From NCBI GenBank assembly GCA_905221605.1, contig CAJNDS010002097.1:392501-456500 (forward strand): a DNA stretch of 64,000 nucleotides. The letters are read 5' to 3'. A model generated the notes under the pieces. The model was not told the origin of the DNA. It did no database searches and saw only the letters and a program-made list of their open reading frames with translations. This stretch comes from Symbiodinium natans. Its lineage: Eukaryota; Sar; Dinophyceae; Suessiales; Symbiodiniaceae. The translations under genes and the position numbers were made by a program. This document shows positions 8,598 to 64,000 of this stretch, in pieces. The stretch's first letter is position 1, and every line of letters starts with the position of its first letter.

Positions 8598-9092
8598 CGA
8601 CCTTGCCCATGCCCAGTAAAACGGCGACCTTGCCCAGTAAAACAGCGACCTTGCCCAGTAAAACGGCGACCTTGCCCAGTAAAACGGCGACCTTGCCCAG
8701 TAAAACGGCGACCTTGCCCAGTAAAACGGCGACCTTGCCCAGTAAAACCGACCTTGCCCAGTAAAACGGCGACCTTGCCCAGTAAAACGGCGACCTTGCC
8801 CAGTAAAACGGCGACCTTCGGGGAAGGTAGCATTTTTACTGGGCAGGGGGGGGTGTCCGGCAAGGTCGATTTTGGTCAAAAATCGACCTTGCCCAGTAAA
8901 ACGGCGACCTTGCCCAGTAAAACGGCGACCTTCGGGGTCCAAGGTCGCATTTTTACTGGGCAGGGGCGGAAGGTCGCCGTTTTACTGGGCAAGGTCGCCG
9001 TTTTACTGGGCAAGGTCGATTTTTTTGACCGAACTGACCTTGCCCAGTAACACGGCGACCTTGCCCAGTAAAACGGCGACCTTGCCCAGTAA
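8598..9092. repeat. 21-bp tandem array with inverted blocks
   Basis: The unit CTTGCCCAGTAAAACGGCGAC repeats head-to-tail about ten times from 8598 to 8820. Two forward units follow at about 8888-8930, inverted units at about 8945-9020, and forward units again at 9040-9090. The junctions contain hairpin-forming pieces, for example GGTCGATTTTGGTCAAAAATCGACC at about 8865-8887 and a T-rich version near 9014-9032. Because 21 is a multiple of three, all frames stay open and give false ORFs. No telomere units occur inside the array; a TTTAGGG array follows at 9124-9202. Confidence 0.9.
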
Positions 9093-9420
9093 CTCCTTAA
9101 CATTTAAATTATATATGAAAGAGAGGTTTAGGGTTTAGGGTTTAGGGTTTAGGGTTTAGGGTTTAGGGTTTAGGGTTTAGGGTTTAGGGTTTAGGGTTTA
9201 GGCTTTAGGGTTTAAGGCGTAGGGCTGAGGGTTTAGGGTTTCAGGTTCAATACTTTCGAGCTGATGTAATATCACTATAGAATCTCACAGGGCACCTTGC
9301 TTCAGCTTGACACCTTCTTGTCTGCTTGGTTCGGGCTCTGAAGAAAGGAGCTTAAGACCCTAAACCCTAAAGCCTAAACCCCAAACCCCAAACCCTAAAC
9401 CCTAAACCCGCAAAAAAGGG

Positions 9421-53937: not shown

Positions 53938-54507
53938 AAGCTTGGAGCAATGGCTTCGGCTCGCCCACGCTGTCAGATCCGTTGCGAAAGGGTTGGTCCG
54001 ACCTCGCATCTTGCTTGGAGTTTCGGGGGGAGCTAGGACAGCTAGGGTTTAGGGTTTAGGCAGCTAGGGTTTAGGGTTTAGGGTTTAGGGTTTAGGGTTC
54101 AGGGTTCAGGGTTCAGGGTTTATAAGGTTTAGGGTTTAGAGTTTAGGTTTAGGGTTTAGGGTTCAGGAAGCTAGGGTTCAGGGCGTTTGGTGTGTAGGTT
54201 GACGGAGCGTTTGGAGCCTGGGAACAACTGGCAAACGAATGGCTGCTGACTTTGGAGTTCAGCTCAGGACGAGCTCGGCGGTTCAGATTCTCCGAAACCC
54301 TAAATCCTAAACCCTAAACCCTAAACCCTAACCCTAAGCCCCAAACCCTAAACCCTAAATTCTCCAGCAGGACCTCGCGCATCTGCGCCTTCTGTCGCCT
54401 GTGCCAAGCTTTGGCATACTCCTCCTGCGTTTCGCGGGATCGGCGGCCCGTCCACGCGGCCGTGCGACAGGGCCCAGCACACACCTCGATCTCCGAAACT
54501 TGTGACG
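53938..54507 (-). CDS. Minus-strand exons of an unknown protein
   Basis: Three open islands separated by telomere-type repeats: 54374-54507 (TGRRSRETQEEYAKAWHRRQ, then KAQMRE, donor GAG|GTCCTG), about 54200-54290 (NRRARPELNSKVSSHSFASC) and about 53938-54035 (RNSKQDARSDQPFRNGSDSV). The first follows a CAACAG acceptor and has a clear helical, basic character. They may be 5' exons of the gene ending at 49893; phases were not resolved between them. Confidence 0.5.
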
Positions 54508-54854
54508 CTGTTGAGGGTTTAGGGTTGAGGGTTTAGGGTTTAGGGTTTAGGGTTTAGGGTTTAGGGTTTAGGGTTCGCGCAACCCCCAACTCAAGAAGTC
54601 CCAGTGGACCCTGCGATAAAGACATCAGTCCCAGAGATGCAGTACACCAAAAACCCTACTTTCCACGAAGCCTTCTGCACGTAAACCGGAAAACCTTCAA
54701 AATCTTAACCCTTAACCCTAAACCCTAAACCCTAAACCCTAAACCCTAAACCCTAAACCCCAAACCTTAAACCCCTACACCCAATCAGGTCCTTGATCTG
54801 AACCACTCAGCCCGAACCTTTCAACTCCTACCTAGAGAAGTGAAGCCAAACTTA

Positions 54855-54966
54855 GTAGCCCAGTAACCACATTATCATAACGACATCCTGTTTTTGGTTG
54901 GTTACTTTATAAGGGGAAACCAGAAAAACAAAAAAAAAATGAAAAGGGTACCACCGGGGTAGCAAG
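54855..54966. mobile_element. Introner-like element, family B
   Basis: GTAGCCCAGTAACCACATTA to GGTACCACCGGGGTAGCAAG, 112 bp, with the TTGGTTGGTTACTTTATAAG core intact. Confidence 0.85.
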
Positions 54967-55206
54967 CAAAAGACCTTCAGGGGGGCACCGGTCTTTTTTG
55001 GTTTGGGGGGGAGGAAAGGGAGGCTACAAAAAGTTCCGGGGCCCAAACGCCGACAGCAAGGACCCTGAACCCCAAACCCTAAACCCTAAACCCTATACCC
55101 TAAACCCTATACCCTAAACCCTAAACCCCAACGAAGCTGAGGCGGGGGCGACAGTCAGACAGAGGGGGCATCGATTCTGATGGCCGAGCCTGTCAGTAAG
55201 CAGCCC

Positions 55207-55406
55207 AGGATGGCCCTTAAAACAGTATGAAAGTTAGGGTGTAGGGCTTAGGGTTTAGGGTTTAGGGTTTAGGGGTTAGGGTTTAGGGTTTAGGGTTTAG
55301 GGTTTAGGGGTTAGGGTTTAGGGTTTAGGGTTTAGGGTTTAGTCCTGAAGATGATCCTCTTAAACCAAATAAGGGCCAATATAAAATATTTCAAGGGCGT
55401 ACCTAG
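55207..55406. mobile_element. Family C element with internal telomere array
   Basis: AGGATGGCCCTTAAAACAGT and ATTTCAAGGGCGTACCTAG are the ends. GATGATCCTCTTAAACCAAA is preserved. About 108 bp of TTTAGGG units (55235-55343) are inserted between the left end and this core. Confidence 0.88.
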
Positions 55407-55517
55407 CAGCTCTTTCTTTGGCCAGCCCAGGGCGGCCGTGCTTCGGCTTATCCCTTAAAACTCGAACCGCAAGCCTGGCTTCAACCCAGAAGCCGTCAAC
55501 CTCCAACCCCCCCCTTG

Positions 55518-55618
55518 GTAGCCCAGTAACCATACTACAATAAGGGCACTCTTTTGTGGGTGGGTTTACGTATAAGGGAACCCAGAACCAAAAAAAGAGT
55601 AAAGGGTAGGGCTACCAG
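55518..55618. mobile_element. Introner-like element, family B, slightly shortened
   Basis: GTAGCCCAGTAACCATACTA to AAAGGGTAGGGCTACCAG. The ACCACT part of the right end is lost. Confidence 0.8.
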
Positions 55619-56014
55619 GCCCCTCTTGGGAGTTCGCAGCCCCACACCAGCCCGTAGCCAAACAATCAATGCAAGAGCCTTGACTCTTACATTTTAAAGC
55701 AGGTCCAAGGCCTCCCCCTAAACCCTCAACCTTAAATTTGAACCCTAAACCCTAATCCCTAAACCCTAAACCCTAAATTTTGAACCCTAAACCCTCAACC
55801 CTGAACCCTGAAGCCTAAACCCTAAATATGGAAGCCGTGCCCCCGCTGGGGCCCCTGCAGCCACTCATCGACGCACAGCCTTGGTGTAGCTAAGTTGCAC
55901 CTTGACCCGCAACCTGTTTAGGGCCCTAAGTTTCCCACTGGATATATTTAGGGTTTAGGGTTTAGGGCCTAGGGTTTAGGGTTTAGGGCTTCGGTCTTCT
56001 AAGGCTTAGCTACT

Positions 56015-56100
56015 GGATAGGCGCAAAGCTCATCTGGGAGTGCGGCTGGTGAAAGTGATGATGACAGCCAAGCTTGCGTATGTCCTGGCAGCACTCTAGG
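56015..56100 (+). CDS. Exon-like segment, strand uncertain
   Basis: The plus frame reads DRRKAHLGVRLVKVMMTAKL and ends LAAL then TAG. The minus strand is also open (DIRKLGCHHHFHQPHSQMSF). Only one can be real; no neighbours settle it. Confidence 0.3.
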
Positions 56101-56565
56101 CCCTACAACCCTAAACCCTGCACCCCAAAAGCCCAACCGACTCCCTAAACCCTGATGCCCTAAACTAGTTCCTTGAGGAGGGCTCTCCAGATGAGAGATG
56201 ATACATAAAAAGCAATTTATACATATATGTATATATACGTTTATGTATTTATGTGAACATGCATATACAATCCCCCTTCCACCCTATCCGTTGGCTGTTT
56301 TAAGCAAGGGGGCTTAGGGTTTATATTGAACTTTGAACCCTAATGCCGAACCCTAAAACTCTAAACCCTAAGTCCTGAACCCTCAACTCAAAAACCTGAG
56401 TCCTGAACTCTCAACTCTAAACCCTAAATCCTAACGTCTCAACCGCCATCTGTTTGTAGGAAAGGCCAGTATCTGCAGGACCGCAGGCCGTGAGAGCTGC
56501 GGCGAACGTAGCGAGGCCACCCTCAGCCCCCTAAGCCATAAGCCCCAAATGCTAAACCCAGTTTG

Positions 56566-56755
56566 GTAGCCCGGCAACCATATTGCAACAAGGGCCCTAA
56601 ACCCTAAACCCTAAAACCCTAAACCCTAAACCCTAAACCCTAAACCCTAAACCATAAACCCTAAACCCTAAACCTCCCTTGTTGGGAATGGTTGCTTTAT
56701 AAGAAACCTAGAGACAACAAAAGGGCAAAAGGGTACCAATGGCCTGATTTACCAA
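56566..56755. mobile_element. Family B element with internal CCCTAAA array
   Basis: GTAGCCCGGCAACCATATTG at the left; GGAATGGTTGCTTTATAAG, AAAAGGGTACCAATGGCC and TTTACCAA at the right. About 95 bp of CCCTAAA units (56592-56687) are inserted after AACAAGGG. Confidence 0.85.
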
Positions 56756-57117
56756 CCCTAAAGCCCAAACACCCTAACACCCTAAAACCCTGAACACCAA
56801 AGGATTTAAGGGACCTTGACCCAAGAAATCGGATTTAGGGTTTAGTGTTTAGGGTCTAGGGTTTAGGGCTTAGGGCTTAGGGCTTAGGGGGAGTTACCAG
56901 GCATTCAGAAACACTTAGACCAACACCCTGGACCCGACTCAGTGGGTGCAAGAGCCCTCGGAACCCAAGTGTGAAGGCCTGTTAGGGTTGAGGGTTTAGG
57001 GTTTAGGGTTTAGGGTTTAGGGTTTAGGGTTTAGAGTTTAGGGTTTAAGTTTAGGGTTTAGGGTTTCGGGTTCAGGGTTCAGGGTTCAGGGTTTCGGGTT
57101 TAGGGTGTAGAGTTGTG

Positions 57118-57162
57118 AGGGCGCAGCTTTTGCGTCAATCTTCCCAAACGATTTCCACGAGG
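57118..57162 (+). CDS. Short exon-like segment
   Basis: GGCGCAGCTTTTGCGTCAATC encodes GAAFASIFPNDFHE, ending at CGAG|GTCTGA. It is flanked upstream by TTTAGGG-type repeat, which is the less common orientation before a plus-strand exon. Confidence 0.3.
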
Positions 57163-57301
57163 TCTGATTTATTCCACCGCCCCGAAAACCCTGTAAACCT
57201 TGGCAAAAAGGCCCTCGACAAAACCCCCCTTAAGTCCGGAAACCCGAACCTAGACCCACAAAGCTGAACCCTAAACCCTAAACCCCTAAACCCTAACCCC
57301 T

Positions 57302-57362
57302 AAGCTGTCCTGGCCATCGCTGTAGCTGCCAAAGCAAATGCTGCACTCCATGTCATCCAGGC
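57302..57362 (-). CDS. Possible first half of a RING zinc finger
   Basis: After GGAATCCTGAG on the minus strand the frame reads LDDMECSICFGSYSDGQDSL. The C-x2-C with an acidic lead and hydrophobic I/F positions is typical of a RING-finger start, as in ubiquitin ligases. The rest of the domain (His and later Cys pairs) was not found on the next minus-strand islands, so this rests on one motif. Confidence 0.4.
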
Positions 57363-57762
57363 CTCAGGATTCCAGGCTCAGCACACCTTCCTGAGGCCTA
57401 TTTCCCTTTTAGGGTTTAGGGTTTCGGGTTTCGGGTTTAGGGTTTAGGGTTTACCCGATACCTTAAGAAGGCTATTTATGGGGCTTGGGAATGTTGGGGG
57501 GCGTCCAGGTGGGGATTCAGCTACCCTAAACCCTAAACCCTAAACCCTAAACCCTAAACCCTAAACCCTGCCAAGGCACTTCCGAGCTGGTGTCGCGCCA
57601 GGGTCGTCTGAAACCTGCCATGGCTTGGAAATTCCTAAGTCGTAACCCTGGCACAAACCTAAATCACGAACCCTAGACGCCTAAACCCTAAACCCTAAAC
57701 CCTTATGCCTAAACCCTAAACCCTAAACCCTGAACATGCAGAACCCTGAATCAATGCCTAAG

Positions 57763-57850
57763 ACATCAACTTGAACGACTTCTGTCAACGCCTATGTCGC
57801 CTCTGTTGCAACCATAAAGGCTGTGTACTGTGTGTCAAGGACGTGACACC
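57763..57850 (+). CDS. Cysteine-rich exon-like segment
   Basis: The plus frame reads NLNDFCQRLCRLCCNHKGCV and LCVKDVT, with seven cysteines in 27 residues. It ends at the start of a long CCCTAAA array. It could be a metal-binding piece; no family pattern matched with confidence. Confidence 0.35.
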
Positions 57851-57979
57851 CTAAACCCTAAACCCTAAACCCTAAACCCTAAACCCTAAACCCTAAACCC
57901 TAAACCCTAAACCCTAAACCCTAAACCCTAAACCCTAAACCCTAAACCCTAAACCCTAAACCCTAAACCCTAAACCCTA
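57845..57979. repeat. CCCTAAA array
   Basis: About 19 near-perfect C-strand units, ending 2 bp before a family C element. Confidence 0.92.
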
Positions 57980-57980
57980 A

Positions 57981-58181
57981 CATGGCCCTTCAAACCCTCT
58001 GAAACATATTCTTAAACTTACTTCTCCAAGCACCAAGGAGAAAAAAAGGCTACACTTTATTATTCCTACAAAGACAGAAACCCAAAAAGTTTAAAATTGA
58101 ATCGTTGGCTAAGTAAGTAAATATGGTCCTCTTAAATCCTATATGGGGAAACATATCATATTATGCCAAGGGCCTACCTAG
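57981..58181. mobile_element. Family C element containing a nested family J element
   Basis: CATGGCCCTTCAAACCCTCTG and ATGCCAAGGGCCTACCTAG are the ends. The family C core is split after ATATTCT by a 101-bp element with its own ends and resumes at ATATGGTCCTCTTAAATCC. Confidence 0.88.
58017..58117. mobile_element. Introner-like element, family J, nested, with 4-bp target duplication
   Basis: CTTACTTCTCCAAGCACCAA to GGCTAAGTAAG; ends CTTACTT and AAGTAAG are inverted. TAAA flanks both sides (58013-58016 and 58118-58121). The interior GGAGAAAAAAAGGCTACACT and TATTCCTACAAAGACAG is shared with 59519-59595. Confidence 0.85.
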
Positions 58182-58199
58182 AATCGCAAACCCACACCT

Positions 58200-58650
58200 T
58201 GACCTGAAAAGCCAGAGAAAGCTGAATTGGCGCAAGGCTTTGGGTTTTTGAGGGGTCCAGCCGCAAATGGCAAGGGAGCACAAATCCTAAAGCCTACGCT
58301 CCAAAGCACGAATTCCAAAACCGTCATGAAAACTCAACTGCGGCAACCGTGTGAACCTTGTTCTCTGCAAATTAAAAAACTGAAAAGACTTGATCTTCAA
58401 TGAAGCGCAGTCGTCGACCAACTTTCAGGATGCTTCGCATGGACAAGCCTCAAGGTCAGAACCACCCGAAGCAAAATGTGCAGACACCAAACGTCAACCT
58501 GTCATGAAAAAGAAGCAAAACCAAGCTCCTTTTATTTGGTCTTATCTCTTCTGAACAGAGAGCAGATATACCCGGCAGTCTGAAGAAAGCTTGGACAACC
58601 AGGATCGTCTTAGCAGCTCGGAGGGCCAGGCCGGCTGAGTACGCTAGATG
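58200..58650. other. Unique interval, no supported gene
   Basis: Largely free of telomere units. A 35-codon ATG-to-stop frame near 58400-58510 (MKRSRRPTFRMLRMDKPQGQ) and other short frames exist on both strands without splice or domain support. Confidence 0.4.
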
Positions 58651-58652
58651 TA

Positions 58653-58762
58653 AATATAGGGGGCTGAATAGTTAGAATAGGGTTTTGGGCGTTGTTTTTG
58701 CATAATTGTAAAGGGACCCTCAGGGAACATTATTTGTAATTCTTCCGACCCCTATATTACAG
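58653..58762. mobile_element. Introner-like element, family E, full copy
   Basis: AATATAGGGGGCTGAATAGTT and AATTCTTCCGACCCCTATATT are inverted ends, followed by ACAG, a possible acceptor. Half copies of the same end occur near 23742 and 38079. Confidence 0.75.
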
Positions 58763-58940
58763 AACGGCGCATGGGGCACGTTCTGCCCGTGAAGACAGCC
58801 GATGTTTACAGCGCTGGGCCACGGAATTGGAGCCGAGCAAACAGACGCGAACAGGCCTAACCCCTAAAACAACAATGAGACCCGAAGAACCCAAACTCCA
58901 AGCCCTTGGTGTGCGCACCATGACTACGCTTGCTCATACC

Positions 58941-59056
58941 ACCGTCATCGTCATCGGCATCGCGATCGTCGCCGTCACTGTCATCATCATTGTCGTCGTC
59001 ATCATCATCATCATCATCATCGTCGCCACCATCATCATCAGCAGCAGCAGGATCCA
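58941..59056. repeat. Trinucleotide-rich ATC/GTC tract
   Basis: Degenerate (ATC)n with GTC interruptions. Frames give poly-Ile/Val on one strand and poly-Asp on the other. A long acidic protein is conceivable, but nothing else supports it. Confidence 0.8.
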
Positions 59057-59254
59057 TACTATTAGTATTATCCGTACATTGGCCGTGACATACCCAGCAC
59101 GGAGCAGAAGCCGTCGCGCACCCTGCGGATAGGTTCTTGTTGGACAGGGGGGGGGGGGGGCAAGCCCAAGCCTAGGACCGAAAGATGCTAAGACCAGAAG
59201 GCACGAAAATTCAAAAAAAATAGGGTTTAGGGTTATACTTACTTCTCCATGTTT

Positions 59255-59450
59255 TGCGGCGAGGAATGCAGGCCTTGCAGCTTGATGATTTGTTTGCTGA
59301 GCATATTGATTTGTCTTCTTTGGGGAGATGCGGGTCGGGATTTCTGATGATGCTCTTGGCGCTGCTCGAGCTGCTATCTTTAAGTTTTGCGCCGGTCGCT
59401 CCGTAAGGACGGTTGGTGCTCTTGCTAGGCCATTTCTTTTGGACTAAGCA
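59255..59450 (+). CDS. Exon-like segment, frame uncertain
   Basis: Two overlapping plus frames are protein-like: MQALQLDDLFAEHIDLSSLG, continuing hydrophobic, and SDDALGAARAAIFKFCAGRS, then a stop. A frameshifted copy of an older gene would explain both. A half family J end lies just upstream at 59235. Confidence 0.35.
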
Positions 59451-59518
59451 CTCTGACTCAGACCAACGCGCGCTGCACCGCTCTGCTGTGCACGTGCCTC
59501 TTTGCCGTGTGTGATATA

Positions 59519-59595
59519 CTTACTTCTCCAATGACCAAGGGGAAAAAAGGTTAAACTTTAATATTCCTACTAAAAAAGGAAACAGGCGAAGTAAG
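59519..59595. mobile_element. Introner-like element, family J, with TATA target duplication
   Basis: CTTACTTCTCCAATGACCAA to GGCGAAGTAAG, flanked by TATA on both sides (59515-59518 and 59596-59599). It is 77 bp with the GGGGAAAAAAGG interior of the family. Confidence 0.85.
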
Positions 59596-59904
59596 TATAT
59601 GTGTCAGCATAGGCGCACCCCCCTCCCCCCCCACCCGTGGCATCCCCCCCCCCCCCCCCCCCGGTGGTTGGGTTTAGGGTTAGGGTTTGGGGTCAGGGCG
59701 GAACGCGGGCACAGAAAGAGGGTTTTTGGTTTACGGTTTTGGGGTTCTAGGGTTTAGGGTTTTAAGGTCCAGCCAGCACGGCACCGAGTCTAGGGCGGGG
59801 CTTGCAGGGGGCTTCCTTGCTTCCATTGATGTTTCTCAGTATTTCAAACTGTCCCCGAAGAGCAGTAAGCCCTGAAAGGTTTCGGGATCAAGGGTGCCCC
59901 AATA

Positions 59905-61905
59905 TTAATAGCCCGAAGTACGAAAGCCAGGGGTCGAAGGACAAAAGCATGCCAGGCACCACACTAGACGCTTGCTGTACTTCTCGAGCATCTCGTGGGG
60001 GATCCCGCGCTTGAAATCGCTCTTCATCAGGTAGTAGAAGAGCAGGACGCAAAGAATCTGCGCCACGTTACCGGCGGGGACGTTGGGAATACTAGAGGGT
60101 AGTTGGGGGGATCAGGTTTAGGGGGAGCCAGGTGCAGGTCTGTGCATCCCCTCGTGCACTCCAAACACATACGGACACGAGACTTGGGTTTGGGGTTTAC
60201 GGTTTAGGGATTTGGGTAGCCCGAACTTTCGGAAAGAATGGACCCCCTAAACCTCGAACGCCCTAAACACAAGCCCTAAACCTTAAATGCCCTGAACCCC
60301 AAGTCCTCGGCCCTACTACATAAGACTACGTTTAGGACCCATGCAACTGTACTTGGAACTAAGCAGGTACCCTTGTATGAAAGCATTTGCAATTTGGCTG
60401 GGCTGGCATTGGGCAATGGTGGGTTGGGGGGGGGAGTGAGTGCCAGTACTGACTTGATAAGTGGAGAAGAAAATCATACACTTACTTGTTAACTTGGGAT
60501 GTTCCCCCATATACTAACAGTCCTTAATCGGGGTTATAATAAGGGGTACTGTAATCCCTATTAAGGACTGTTAGTACAAGGGGGGAACATCCCAACCCTA
60601 AACCCCTAAAACCCGGCAGCGAAAGAGCAAGGCCTAAACCCTAAACCCTAAACCCTAAACCCTAAACCCTAAAGCCTTAAGTGCCTAAGAGCCCCATAAG
60701 AGCCCCCAAGCACGAGCCGGATCCTGAGGCGCGGGCCCTGTGCACGGCGATGCTGATGAAGTTGAAGAGGCCTTGGCTGACTTCTGAGACCCTCCTAAAC
60801 CCTAAACCCTAAACCCTAAACCCTAAACCCTAAACCCTAAACCCTAAACCCTAAACCCTAAGAGCCAGCAAGAAGAAGGCCAAGAGGCAGTGTCTCCAGA
60901 TCTCGTGGGTGAAGGCGGATTGCTGCGCGGAAAGGAGGGTTTAGGGTTTAGGGTTTAAGGTTTAGGGTTTAGGGTTTAGGGTTGGGTGAAGGCGGATTGC
61001 TGCGCGCGCCGGAAAGGCGGGAGGCTATTGGGGGCCCAGAGCCTCAGGGTTTAGGGTGTTGGGGGTTCAGAATTTTGGGGGCTTAAGGGAACCTAGGCTT
61101 AGGGTTTGGGGTTCAGGGTTTTGGGGGGTTAAGGGAACTTAGGGTTTAGGATTTGGGGTTCAGGGATTCTTGGTTATAACTGGGGCTAGAAGCTACGTAT
61201 GGGTAAGGTAGCTCTCGAAAACCCTTCCTTGTGACTTGTGGACATGTTCGCCCTGCTGGTAAGGACCTTTATGAAACTTCAAAGCTTGAATTAGGAGAAT
61301 CTTTGCGGCAAGGGCCTAGGGTTGTGCGGGAAGGTTTAGGTCTGGGTTTTGAGCTCCAGCACTGAGTGTTCGGACTGAGCTGACTGCCCCGGAGCTACAA
61401 CGGCCGAACTTGTGAGGGCTTCAAGGCCTTAAGGAGCGATCTCTACAAGCCTTGGATCATGACCCTAAACCCTCAGCCCCTAAACCCCTAAAACGCTAAA
61501 CCCTGAACCCTCAAATCTCAACCTCAACCTTCTCTTCGGATTTGGGTGCGCCTAAGTGTTTTGGGATTTAGGGGTATACGGGTTTGGGGGAGGGTTCTGG
61601 CGTTTAGGGTTTTGGGGATTTGAGGCTTAGGTTGAAGGGGTTCGGTGCGAGGGTTTCGGGATTCGGGCTATGGTCTGATCAAAAATCTCGAAGCTCTGAA
61701 TCCGAAACCGCAACCCGAGCCGCGAGCCGATGTAAAAGATTTAGGGTTTAGGGTTTAGGGTTTAGGGTTTAGGGGGCAGCAAGAAGAAGCCTGAACCAAA
61801 GCAAACCCTAAACTGAACACTGCCGCGTTGTGAACTCCACCCTGCCTCCGGGTAAAAGCGGAGAACGCACACCACCAGGGACACAGCAGCTAGCCTATGC
61901 GAGTT
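59905..61905 (-). CDS. Putative multi-pass membrane protein, minus-strand exons
   Basis: Hydrophobic minus-strand islands in series: about 61830-61905 (AAVSLVVCVLRFYPEAGW), about 60850-61045 (AFTHEIWRHCLLAFFLLAL), 60714-60783 (VSQGLFNFISIAVHRARASG) and 59905-60091 (NVAQILCVLLFYYLMKSDFK, then basic sequence and TAA). The last two join in phase with a GT donor (GGCTC|GTGC) and a TCTAG acceptor, giving SGSGSIPNVPAGN. The other junctions are unresolved. Several segments could span a membrane. The family is not recognised. The 60850-61045 part carries a telomere block flanked by a 23-bp duplication of coding-like sequence. Confidence 0.5.
60494..60595. mobile_element. Introner-like element, family D, reference copy
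   Basis: TTGGGATGTTCCCCCATATA and GGGGGGAACATCCCAA are perfect termini. CTAACAGTCCTTAATCGGGG and TATTAAGGACTGTTAGTA form long inner arms, so the whole 102 bp can fold into one hairpin. Confidence 0.9.
60907..61006. repeat. Telomere block flanked by a 23-bp direct duplication
   Basis: GGGTGAAGGCGGATTGCTGCGCG at 60907-60929 recurs exactly at 60984-61006. Between them are GAAAGG and about seven TTTAGGG-type units. Confidence 0.9.
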
Positions 61906-61923
61906 TCACAGAGACAGTGACTG

Positions 61924-62031
61924 CTGGTTCTTCGCAGGGAATGAGGTACCCTATATAATCCTTTAAAAGCGTGCTATACAGGGGGAATACAGGGCACCAA
62001 TTTCCCTCCTTCCCCTACTAAGAACCACCAG
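61924..62031. mobile_element. Introner-like element, family F
   Basis: CTGGTTCTTCGCAGGGAATG and CTACTAAGAACCACCAG are inverted ends; GTACCCTATATAATCC and ATACAGGGCACC lie inside. Plus-strand frames are open on both sides, but the phase was not settled. Confidence 0.75.
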
Positions 62032-62136
62032 GGTTCGCACACAGGAGCGAGAGGCCCGACTGAGTTGTTGGGTTCGCAAGGTCACGTTCACTGGGGGACC
62101 CTAAACCCTAAACCCTAGTTCCCTCCAAAGACCTCC

Positions 62137-62236
62137 GGTTTCTAAGCAGGGAATGAGGGAATTAGGCACCTTATATCCCCTTACCCTGTCAGGGACAATA
62201 CAGGGTACCGCATTCCTTTACAAATCAGTAAGCATA
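62137..62236. mobile_element. Family F element, right end decayed
   Basis: CCGGTTTCTAAGCAGGGAATGAGG starts it and GACAATACAGGGTACCGCATTCC is shared with the previous copy; the right end no longer matches. Confidence 0.65.
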
Positions 62237-62734
62237 CAATCTGGAGCTAGGGTCCAACAAGGTTTCTGGACTATTCAATGCTGGCTCGCTCTGCCAAAAC
62301 TGATAACGAAAACCCTGGCCCTAAACCCCCAACTCTCAAGCAGCTTCTGCTAGAGGATCCGACCAGACCTACCGTTCAGGGTTTAGCGTTTAGGGTTTCG
62401 GGTTTAGGGTTTAGCCTAGCGTCAAAGGCCAAATGTAGGGGGAACATTTGGGGAGATGTGGGTGCTCAAGTTCCAGTAGGTTTGGCGGTTCACCCCTAAT
62501 GCCTCAACTCATTCTGCCACGAAGCCGCAACCCGAGACCCTGGTTGCTCGTGCAACTCTTGGAATCGTTTCACACAAAAGCAGGCTCACAAGCAGGCGAA
62601 AGTTTACAGGAATACGATAGGGTCTAGGATTTAGGGTTTGGGCAGCCAACTGCACGAGCCTTGTAAACCCTAAACCCTAAACCCTAAACCCTAAACCCTA
62701 AACCCTAAACCCTGGTATGCAACTCCTCCAAGAT

Positions 62735-62834
62735 AGGGTTCGTAAGGGAGGGGCGCTCACGGGGGTAGGTACCTAGGAAACCTTAGGGAAGCAAGGTGCT
62801 CTGAGGGATTAGCGGAGGTACTTTGGGTTGCATA

Positions 62835-62866
<32 letters not shown>

Positions 62867-62948
62867 CTGAAGGACCCTAACCTTAAACCCTAAATCCTAA
62901 CCCTACACCCCCCCTCCCTTGAGAACCCCATAACTCTAGCTCGGAAGC
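62735..62948. mobile_element. Family G element containing a C-tract and degenerate telomere units
   Basis: GGGTTCGTAAGGGAGGGGCG to CCTCCCTTGAGAACCCCATAA. GGTAGGTACCTAGGAAACC and CTTTGGGTTGCATACC are the family G blocks, followed by about 25 C residues and a few CCCTAAA-like units before the right end. Confidence 0.65.
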
Positions 62949-63040
62949 ACGATGACCCCCCCCCCACCAAAGCCCGCTTGAGTCTCCGACCATCCATAGT
63001 AGAACAGAAGCAAGGCTTTCTCGATGCCTGTAGCACACCC

Positions 63041-63308
63041 TAAACCCTAAAGCCTAAACCTAAAGCCTAAAGCCTAAAGCCTAAGCCTACAGCCTAAAGC
63101 CTAAAGCCTAAAGCCTAAAGCCTAAAGCCTAAAGCCTAAAGCCTAAAGCCTAAAGCCTAAGCCTAAAGCCTAAAGCCTAAAGCCTAAAGCCTAAAGCCTA
63201 AAGCCTAAAGCCTAAAGCCTAAAGCCTAAAGCCTAAAGCCTAAAGCCTAAAGCCTAAAGCCTAAAGCCTAAAGCCTAAAGCCTAAAGCCTAAAGCCTAAA
63301 GCCTAACC
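63041..63308. repeat. Homogenised CCTAAAG variant telomere array
   Basis: About 37 units of CCTAAAG (AGCCTAA) with three 1-bp shortened units (CCTAAG), bounded by one CCCTAAA-type stretch. One base differs from the canonical C-strand unit throughout. Confidence 0.95.
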
Positions 63309-63386
63309 TAAACTATATGCTGCAAACTCTGGGTTCCTCATGCCATGGGCCAGAGTAGCATAGCACACTTGACTTGGGACTGTTCG

Positions 63387-63488
63387 TTGGGATGTACCCC
63401 CTTACACTACCAGCTCCTCAATAGGGATTCTAATAGGGGGTACGCGAATCCCTATTAAGGACTGTTAGTATAGGGGGGAACATCCCAA
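63387..63488. mobile_element. Introner-like element, family D
   Basis: TTGGGATGTACCCCCTTACA and GGGGGGAACATCCCAA are the ends; GGGATTCTAATAGGGGGTAC and CCCTATTAAGGACTGTTAGT lie inside. Full length at 102 bp, like 60494-60595. Confidence 0.88.
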
Positions 63489-64000
63489 GTGACATCTCTG
63501 CTGCAGTCGGACTGAGAGGACAAATCTGGCATCTGAGGGATGAGGGATCGATTGGGGACTCAGGGTTTTTACGCCCCCAGGCCCACCACCACACCACCCC
63601 CCCTCCCCTACCCCGGGTCCGAATGAGAAGGGCCACGTCGAGGGCTTTTTGCATGGGAGATTCGTATAAAGGGGGACATCACAAGACGTCACCCCCCAAA
63701 AAAACAAGCGACACCTGAACTCGAAAACCCTGAACCCAAGGGTTGAACTGTTCAGGGTTCAGAGTTTAGGGCTCAGGGTTCAGGGTTTAGGGCTACCTCG
63801 AACACCCTGCAAAAGCCCCCCCCACCCCCCCAATTCAACCAACCTGTTTTGGGTCTCCTTCTGACCCTCTAAACCCTAAACATCCCTATAACCCCAAAAT
63901 AGGGTCTAGGGTTTAGGGCTTAGGGCCTATCTATAGGGTTTAGGGTTTAGGGCAAAAAAACCTAAACAAACCTGAAAGAACCCGAACAGTGCTGAGTGTT
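63489..64000. other. Window end, no supported gene
   Basis: The minus-strand frames at 63430-63707 overlap the family D element and a C-tract. The rest holds short TTTAGGG/TTCAGGG units and degenerate C-strand pieces. Confidence 0.5.

Follow-up and report, generated by a model that had tools for sequence, protein, structure and literature searches.

The window, that is, the whole stretch of 64,000 nucleotides of Symbiodinium natans DNA analysed here, contains on its minus strand (53973-64000) part of a gene for a RING-finger protein with multiple membrane spans, modelled with 16 exons and 15 introns; the exons located extend past the end of the window, to about 69591. To build the gene model, a composite of peptides of the minus strand led to related proteins, these to longer relatives, and the relatives to the exon boundaries. 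One of the relatives is named a RING-type domain-containing protein, several hydrophobic stretches can be recognized by eye, and the relatives that carry a species name come only from Durusdinium trenchii and Effrenium voratum. The 225-amino-acid product aligns without gaps to residues 47-271 of the relative P0016, which comes from a 915-bp contig and shows 97% identity in the 58 residues that surround the telomere block described below (the model starts short of the N-terminal start of the protein). When the genome (759.4 Mb in 2543 contigs) was searched with another relative, P0003, this locus alone matched its conserved membrane segment with a low E-value; the other low-E matches hit its RING part. 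All 15 introns have AG acceptors, and their donors are GC in 10 cases, GT in 4 and GA in 1; the available part of a review gives a range of 25-74% for introns with GC or GA donors in Symbiodiniaceae (PMC11453091). Pfam searches of five translations gave nothing above the curated cut-off, Rfam and tRNA searches of the window gave no match, and a scan of viral and GTDB contigs for a relative found none.

The part of the gene that concerns us begins with an exon at 61846-61894 (minus strand), LAAVSLVVCVLRFYPE, which ends in ...YPE and has a GC donor. It is followed on the same strand by intron 7 (60923-61845, 923 nt, GC-AG), by a 34-nt exon, QSAFTHEIWRH(C), at 60889-60922, defined by protein alignment and the model, by intron 8, and by a 35-nt exon, LFNFISIAVHR, at 60737-60771, which adjoins the previous exon directly in P0002 and, frame shifted, in P0004. 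Of the eight related proteins, six align gap-free over 58 residues to the spliced product, LAAVSLVVCVLRFYPE joined to QSAFTHEIWRHC, LFNFISIAVHR and ILCV, while the other two, P0003 and P0001 (the most distant), are one residue longer and one residue shorter at the join, respectively. The residues at the join are EQS, EQT or EES, with NET in P0001. The gap-free join to the related proteins therefore makes the whole of 61845-60923 one intron, and the model predicts that the spliced transcript of the exons from 61846-61894 to 60737-60771 reads PEQSAFTHEIWRHCLFNF, with no telomeric sequence.

Near the 3' end of intron 7 lies a TTTAGGG tract of 48 nt with one mismatch (60936-60983, plus strand), which reads CCCTAAA in the transcript, begins 13 nt outside the 34-nt exon and faces away from it. 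It is flanked by two exact copies of a 24-bp repeat, 77 nt apart, with the tract ends at distances of 6 and -1 nt from the copies. An earlier note on this DNA had reported an exact 23-bp duplication around about 50 bp of telomere-type sequence; both observations are confirmed, the duplication being in fact 24 bp long. That note had also placed the block in an exon of a membrane protein, which holds only for the minus-strand segment from 60922 down to 60889, the block itself being intronic. Copy 1 (60906-60929, minus strand) straddles the splice junction, with 7 nt (CGCGCAG) that close intron 7 and 17 nt that open the 34-nt exon, and supplies the acceptor used in the model. Copy 2 (60983-61006, minus strand) repeats that acceptor and the 17 nt of exon 77 nt upstream, and intron 7 accordingly includes the tract, the whole of copy 2 and the 7 intronic nt of copy 1. 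Use of copy 2 as the acceptor would give the frame QSAFTQP followed by a stop. On this model, the duplication is one from acceptor to acceptor, and the exon is intact.

The 23-mer GGGTGAAGGCGGATTGCTGCGCG occurs exactly twice in the window (60907-60929 and 60984-61006), where 0 occurrences were expected from 100 shuffles, and with up to 3 mismatches it is found at five places genome-wide: these two exact ones and three with 3 mismatches. If one gap is allowed, the alignment of the copies extends to 39 columns, with 33 of 34 bases identical and an indel of 5 bp. On the exon side of the tract, the present-day sequence has a GGG in register with the repeat. The block is internal on its contig (at about 453 kb of 676 kb), consists of telomeric units in tandem and is accompanied by a duplication of the putative break site, as are some interstitial telomeric sequences of the break-repair type.

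The window holds 228 telomere tracts in total, and given this number a lone tract is not special in it. To judge the duplication we used 502 tracts drawn from the window together with an extension of 6.3 kb and from 18 loci selected by their telomeric matches, a set that represents tract-rich DNA; a score of at least 25 was required for entry into this list and into the shorter one of 154 tracts, which left out 74 weaker tracts of the window. Outside tandem arrays, an abutting repeat of at least 20 bp is present at 1 of the 502 tracts, where random places give 0.03 on average with the arrays masked and 0.68 with the arrays left unmasked. With arrays masked, abutting repeats of at least 10 bp are found at 5 of 502 tracts against a mean of 1.07 (control maximum 5 in 60 rounds), and those of at least 8 bp at 6 of 502 against 5.2. 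Unmasked flanking repeats of at least 8 bp show no excess (15 of 502 tracts, mean 13.1 at random places), and unmasked random places are as rich in repeats as the tracts because this genome abounds in local repeats. An early enrichment over shuffled flanks (22 of 154 tracts, mean 7.2) was largely explained away by the random-place control. After masking, only the longer repeats are still in excess, and nearly all tracts are without such a duplication. A search for a shared transposon or telomerase-RNA segment beside the tracts found none: the non-telomeric 12-mer common to most tracts belongs to a MITE end and is present at 4 of the 502, and the others reach at most 3.

On the other side of the 34-nt exon, intron 8 (60772-60888, minus strand, 117 nt, GC-AG) is an introner, with terminal inverted repeats (TIRs) CTTGGC/GCCAAG, a 4-bp target site duplication (TSD) GCCT at its junctions (GCCTCTT at both) and many copies in the genome. 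A perfect telomeric tract of 68 nt (60794-60861, minus strand, TTTAGGG in the transcript) replaces the middle of the introner. Junction repeats of at least 7 in the same register are found in 2 of the 15 introns (8 and 12), compared with 1 of 210 mispaired controls. The 5' end of intron 8 has 258 places in the genome within 3 mismatches, itself included, and its reversed control has 0. One relative, L045, has no internal tract: it is a 112-nt hairpin with the ends CTTGGC...GCCAAG, lies between GAAA duplications and folds as a single hairpin of -39.2 kcal/mol. Four-base TSDs could be read by eye in five of six family loci, among them GATT in L042, GTAG in L044, GTAC in L046 and GCCT in intron 8, the far end of L043 being unseen. 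A tract is present in five of the six family loci read, a proportion favoured by the search pattern, which ended in TTAGGG.

The related proteins bear on the age of this intron. Judging by their protein records, P0002 and P0004 seem to include introns 7, 9 or 10 as read-through sequence, yet the exons around intron 8 are contiguous in both (by reading, with the frame shifted in P0004); they look like unspliced genomic frames that seem to be without intron 8. A gain of intron 8 seems likelier than a loss because of the TSD duplication, and a loss in the ancestor of P0002 and P0004 is also possible. The idea of a new intron fits intron 8 better than it fits the block, and it may fit intron 12 too.

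Across the genome there are 279 exact 18-base 5' arms of this introner. Within 30 nt inside these arms, TTTAGGG occurs at 24 distinct places (41 rows) and CCCTAAA at 8 (13 rows; p 0.007). CCCTAAA precedes the 3' arm (AGAAGTCAGCCAAGG) at 31 distinct places (45 rows), a count of places, not a share of the 3' arms, that covers the CCCTAAA orientation only. By eye, the starts of the introner tracts vary between copies, and they often follow CTTAGG or TTTGGG, which are in phase with the telomeric repeat. At C1781:135071-135312, what is apparently a single introner copy shows TTTAGGG on the inner side of its 5' arm and CCCTAAA on that of its 3' arm, the arrangement expected if both broken ends had been capped.

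Several other features of the window involve telomeric repeats or short duplications. Intron 12 (56085-57309, minus strand, GA-AG) has a 9-bp direct repeat, GCCAG/GACA, across both splice sites (the slash marks the junction) and a telomere-like tract at 57267-57303 that begins 6 nt from the donor; it is perhaps a better case than the block of the new-intron idea raised in the earlier note. Two copies of an inverted-repeat element of about 100 bp beginning TTGGGATGTTCCCCC lie at about 60493-60594 and 63387-63489, and the end of the TTGGGATGTTCCCCC element is also found near telomere tracts in loci L014, L025 and L028. The tract at 56595-56674 has an inverted pair, CAACAAGGG and CCCTTGTTG, at its ends. 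The sequence AGCAAGAAGAAG has only two occurrences in the pooled sequence, at 60867 and 61778, each beside a telomere tract (introns 8 and 7, respectively). A long array at 63037-63306, in which the variant unit GGCTTTA predominates and some telomeric units of the normal kind occur, ends 9 nt before an acceptor. Finally, 21-bp tandem arrays (TGCCCAGTAAAACGGCGACCT) occupy 8610-9093 in both orientations.

The tract of the block and that of intron 8 form the two sides of one exon bracketed by outward-facing tracts, and this arrangement recurs. In the 502-tract set, outward neighbours (CCCTAAA followed by TTTAGGG) are separated by a median gap of 121.5 bp, with 101 of 144 gaps at or below 150 bp, and inward neighbours (TTTAGGG followed by CCCTAAA) by a median of 310 bp, with 39 of 145 at or below 150 bp (outward versus inward, p about 1e-13). 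The same comparison within 150 bp gives 31 of 47 outward against 15 of 46 inward gaps for the window alone, 25 of 39 against 12 of 39 for its part outside this gene, and 68 of 94 against 24 of 95 for the 18 other loci, and the direction of the difference in median gap is the same in 20 of 20 sequences. The enclosed segments have a G+C fraction of 0.592 when outward, 0.525 when inward and 0.557 when the tracts share an orientation, and some of the outward ones look coding-like by eye. A codon-usage score did not separate outward segments from the others; it also failed on known exons (p 0.88) and is uninformative.

Within the RING-finger gene, the intervals of up to 200 bp that hold exons are 6 of 10 outward, 0 of 5 inward and 2 of 6 with equal orientation; for intervals of up to 400 bp the figures are 6 of 10, 1 of 9 and 4 of 10. 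Rotated exons give a mean of 0.76 for the 6 of 10 outward intervals holding an exon, with a maximum of 4 in 5000 rounds. Around the 32 exon sides, the tracts no more than 100 nt away are outward in 15 cases and inward in 5 (sign test p 0.04), and 0 of 5000 rotations reach as high a value, although this exon-flank test dropped rotated exons that hit a tract, which lowers the control mean; the interval test has no such drop. When each of the 17 near-exon tracts is taken once, the donor side has 6 sense and 2 antisense and the acceptor side 3 sense and 6 antisense, which is not significant (p 0.15), and there is no strand bias between the halves of the introns, each half having 9 sense and 8 antisense tracts. 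The orientation signal is weak in this gene alone, and it is the pooled gap statistic that carries it. Nor is the outward-bracketing pattern universal: RING or Rpb2 matches led to 14 loci other than the window's own, and 9 of them have no tract (L030, L032, L033, L037, L038, L039, L047, L048 and L049). Of these, L047, L048 and L049 are tract-free Rpb2-type loci on C31, C101 and C524, and tract density is very uneven between loci.

From the arrangement of tract, copies and exon we infer that the block is probably an interstitial telomeric insertion made by break repair at the 3' splice junction of an already existing intron. A staggered double-strand break would have crossed the junction of intron 7 and the downstream 34-nt exon. 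The exon-side 3' end (plus strand, ...GGAAAGGAGGG) would then have been lengthened with TTTAGGG, most simply by telomerase, and joined again with the opposite end; fill-in, or template switching back into the exon, would have left the 24-39 bp that separated the staggered nicks on both sides. Because the downstream copy keeps the acceptor and the exon, the insert should be removed by splicing and the protein should be unchanged. The same process would also produce tracts that start inside introner arms and just outside exons and run away from the exon. Healing alone does not obviously yield an outward bias of 3:1, which would need protection of the capped end or selection through splicing. We put forward only tentatively the wider proposal, which may more easily fail than hold, that telomerase or an equivalent activity repeatedly rebuilds introns here: introners and exon edges would break, and the exon-side ends would be capped with TTTAGGG and rejoined, so that exons of tract-rich regions would end up between outward-facing telomeric arrays. 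The block and intron 8 would then represent two stages of this process, and capping would protect exons from resection.

Other explanations of the block have to be weighed against the insertion by break repair. The earlier note suggested that a new intron is arising here within an exon, with the duplication supplying both splice sites. The block and the duplication do touch a splice site, but the block lies inside the existing intron 7 with the 34-nt exon intact, and only the acceptor is copied, the donor being 862 nt away from the tract. Upstream of copy 2 the model has intron, with the 61846 exon and its GC donor joined to 60922 gap-free against six of eight relatives, and by reading P0002 and P0004 appear to share the acceptor position, which would make the intron older; we regard this origin as very improbable. 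The order of events could also be reversed, with a local tandem duplication of the acceptor first and a tract that later landed between the copies or replaced the DNA spacing them. Such a history draws on the frequency of local repeats in this genome and on the equal number of flanking repeats at unmasked random places, and it is made quite unlikely by the position of the copies, 6 and -1 nt from the tract ends, and by the masked comparison, in which 1 of 502 tracts stands against 0.03 expected. That the repetitive region was misassembled is hardly credible, for the two exact copies are unique and just 77 nt apart, the exon is intact, the flanks differ, and the model is coherent over 15 introns.

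Two further explanations concern the tracts in general. They may have spread by copying of existing tracts, through ectopic recombination or transposon capture, and not by telomerase, and with 228 tracts in the window the templates are abundant. We consider this unlikely, given that non-telomeric 12-mers within 80 nt are common to at most 4 of 502 tracts (a MITE end), with few common to 3, and that introner tracts start at differing points, many of them in register with the repeat. Alternatively, near-exon tracts may be kept as splicing aids, the block being one acceptor-side tract among them; they might act as G-runs past donors, as C-rich sequence before acceptors, or through pairing of TTTAGGG with CCCTAAA that loops introns out. 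The exon flanks, with 15 outward and 5 inward tracts, point in this direction, as do the presence of a tract in 14 of the 15 introns of the gene and the three introns of 15 (11, 14 and 15) in which TTTAGGG lies no more than 100 nt from the donor and CCCTAAA no more than 100 nt from the acceptor. However, the three Rpb2-type loci contain several exon matches apiece but no tract, a number of this gene's introns have tracts that face inward or none near their exons, the test of donor against acceptor side gives p 0.15, and TTTAGGG itself contains cryptic GT and AG sites. A role in splicing as the reason for these tracts is one that we consider unlikely.

Break repair at the junction, if correctly read, gives a concrete case of an insertion at a splice junction that is predicted to be silenced by its own duplication. 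The outward tracts at exons and their growth from introner arms link the change of introners after insertion with the origin of internal telomeric repeats, and both questions can be tested with existing Symbiodiniaceae assemblies and RNA-seq. The exon-bracketing arrangement is the part that deserves to be followed up; we found no description of exon-bracketing telomeric tracts in dinoflagellates in a literature search that covered titles and the openings of abstracts, with most subscription papers outside its scope. The effect of intronic telomeric repeats on splicing was called worth testing in the accessible portion of a study of horse and human (PMC7215372).

Comparison with other introners places intron 8 among known elements. 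The introners of Symbiodinium microadriaticum have, in the published portion available, 4-bp TSDs, TIRs, a 3' splice site of their own and a 5' site derived from the TSD (PMC9860276), and intron 8 is alike in all four respects. It differs from them in that its middle, like that of some family members, is telomeric; the block of intron 7, for its part, is no introner. The introner elements of Amoebophrya, a dinoflagellate relative, likewise have direct repeats over the splice sites and inverted repeats at the intron ends, whereas the telomeric repeat is mentioned, in the available extracts of that study, only at scaffold ends (PMC7789003).

The block itself is closer to the short interstitial telomeric sequences that mammals have at sites of breakage (PMC2246262, PMC7215372). 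As far as the accessible text of those two studies goes, the likeness lies in a short internal telomeric array and in a minority of cases with a break-site duplication, and junction microhomology is a feature of theirs. Break-site duplications are given for 6 of the 130 loci in rodents and 4 of the 25 in primates (PMC2246262) and for 3 of 66 horse loci, where they are ascribed to staggered breaks (PMC7215372); the rarity of the duplication here, in a minority of tracts, agrees with this. The block differs in its place on a splice junction and in its duplication of the acceptor. The human genome has no such telomeric repeat in an exon according to the accessible part of the horse and human study (PMC7215372). 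The tracts of the tract-rich DNA examined here are dense and face outward around short segments, while the intronic share of the human ones fits random insertion in the same source (PMC7215372). Read as a break-repair interstitial telomeric sequence, the event itself is of a known kind, and it is the setting that is new.
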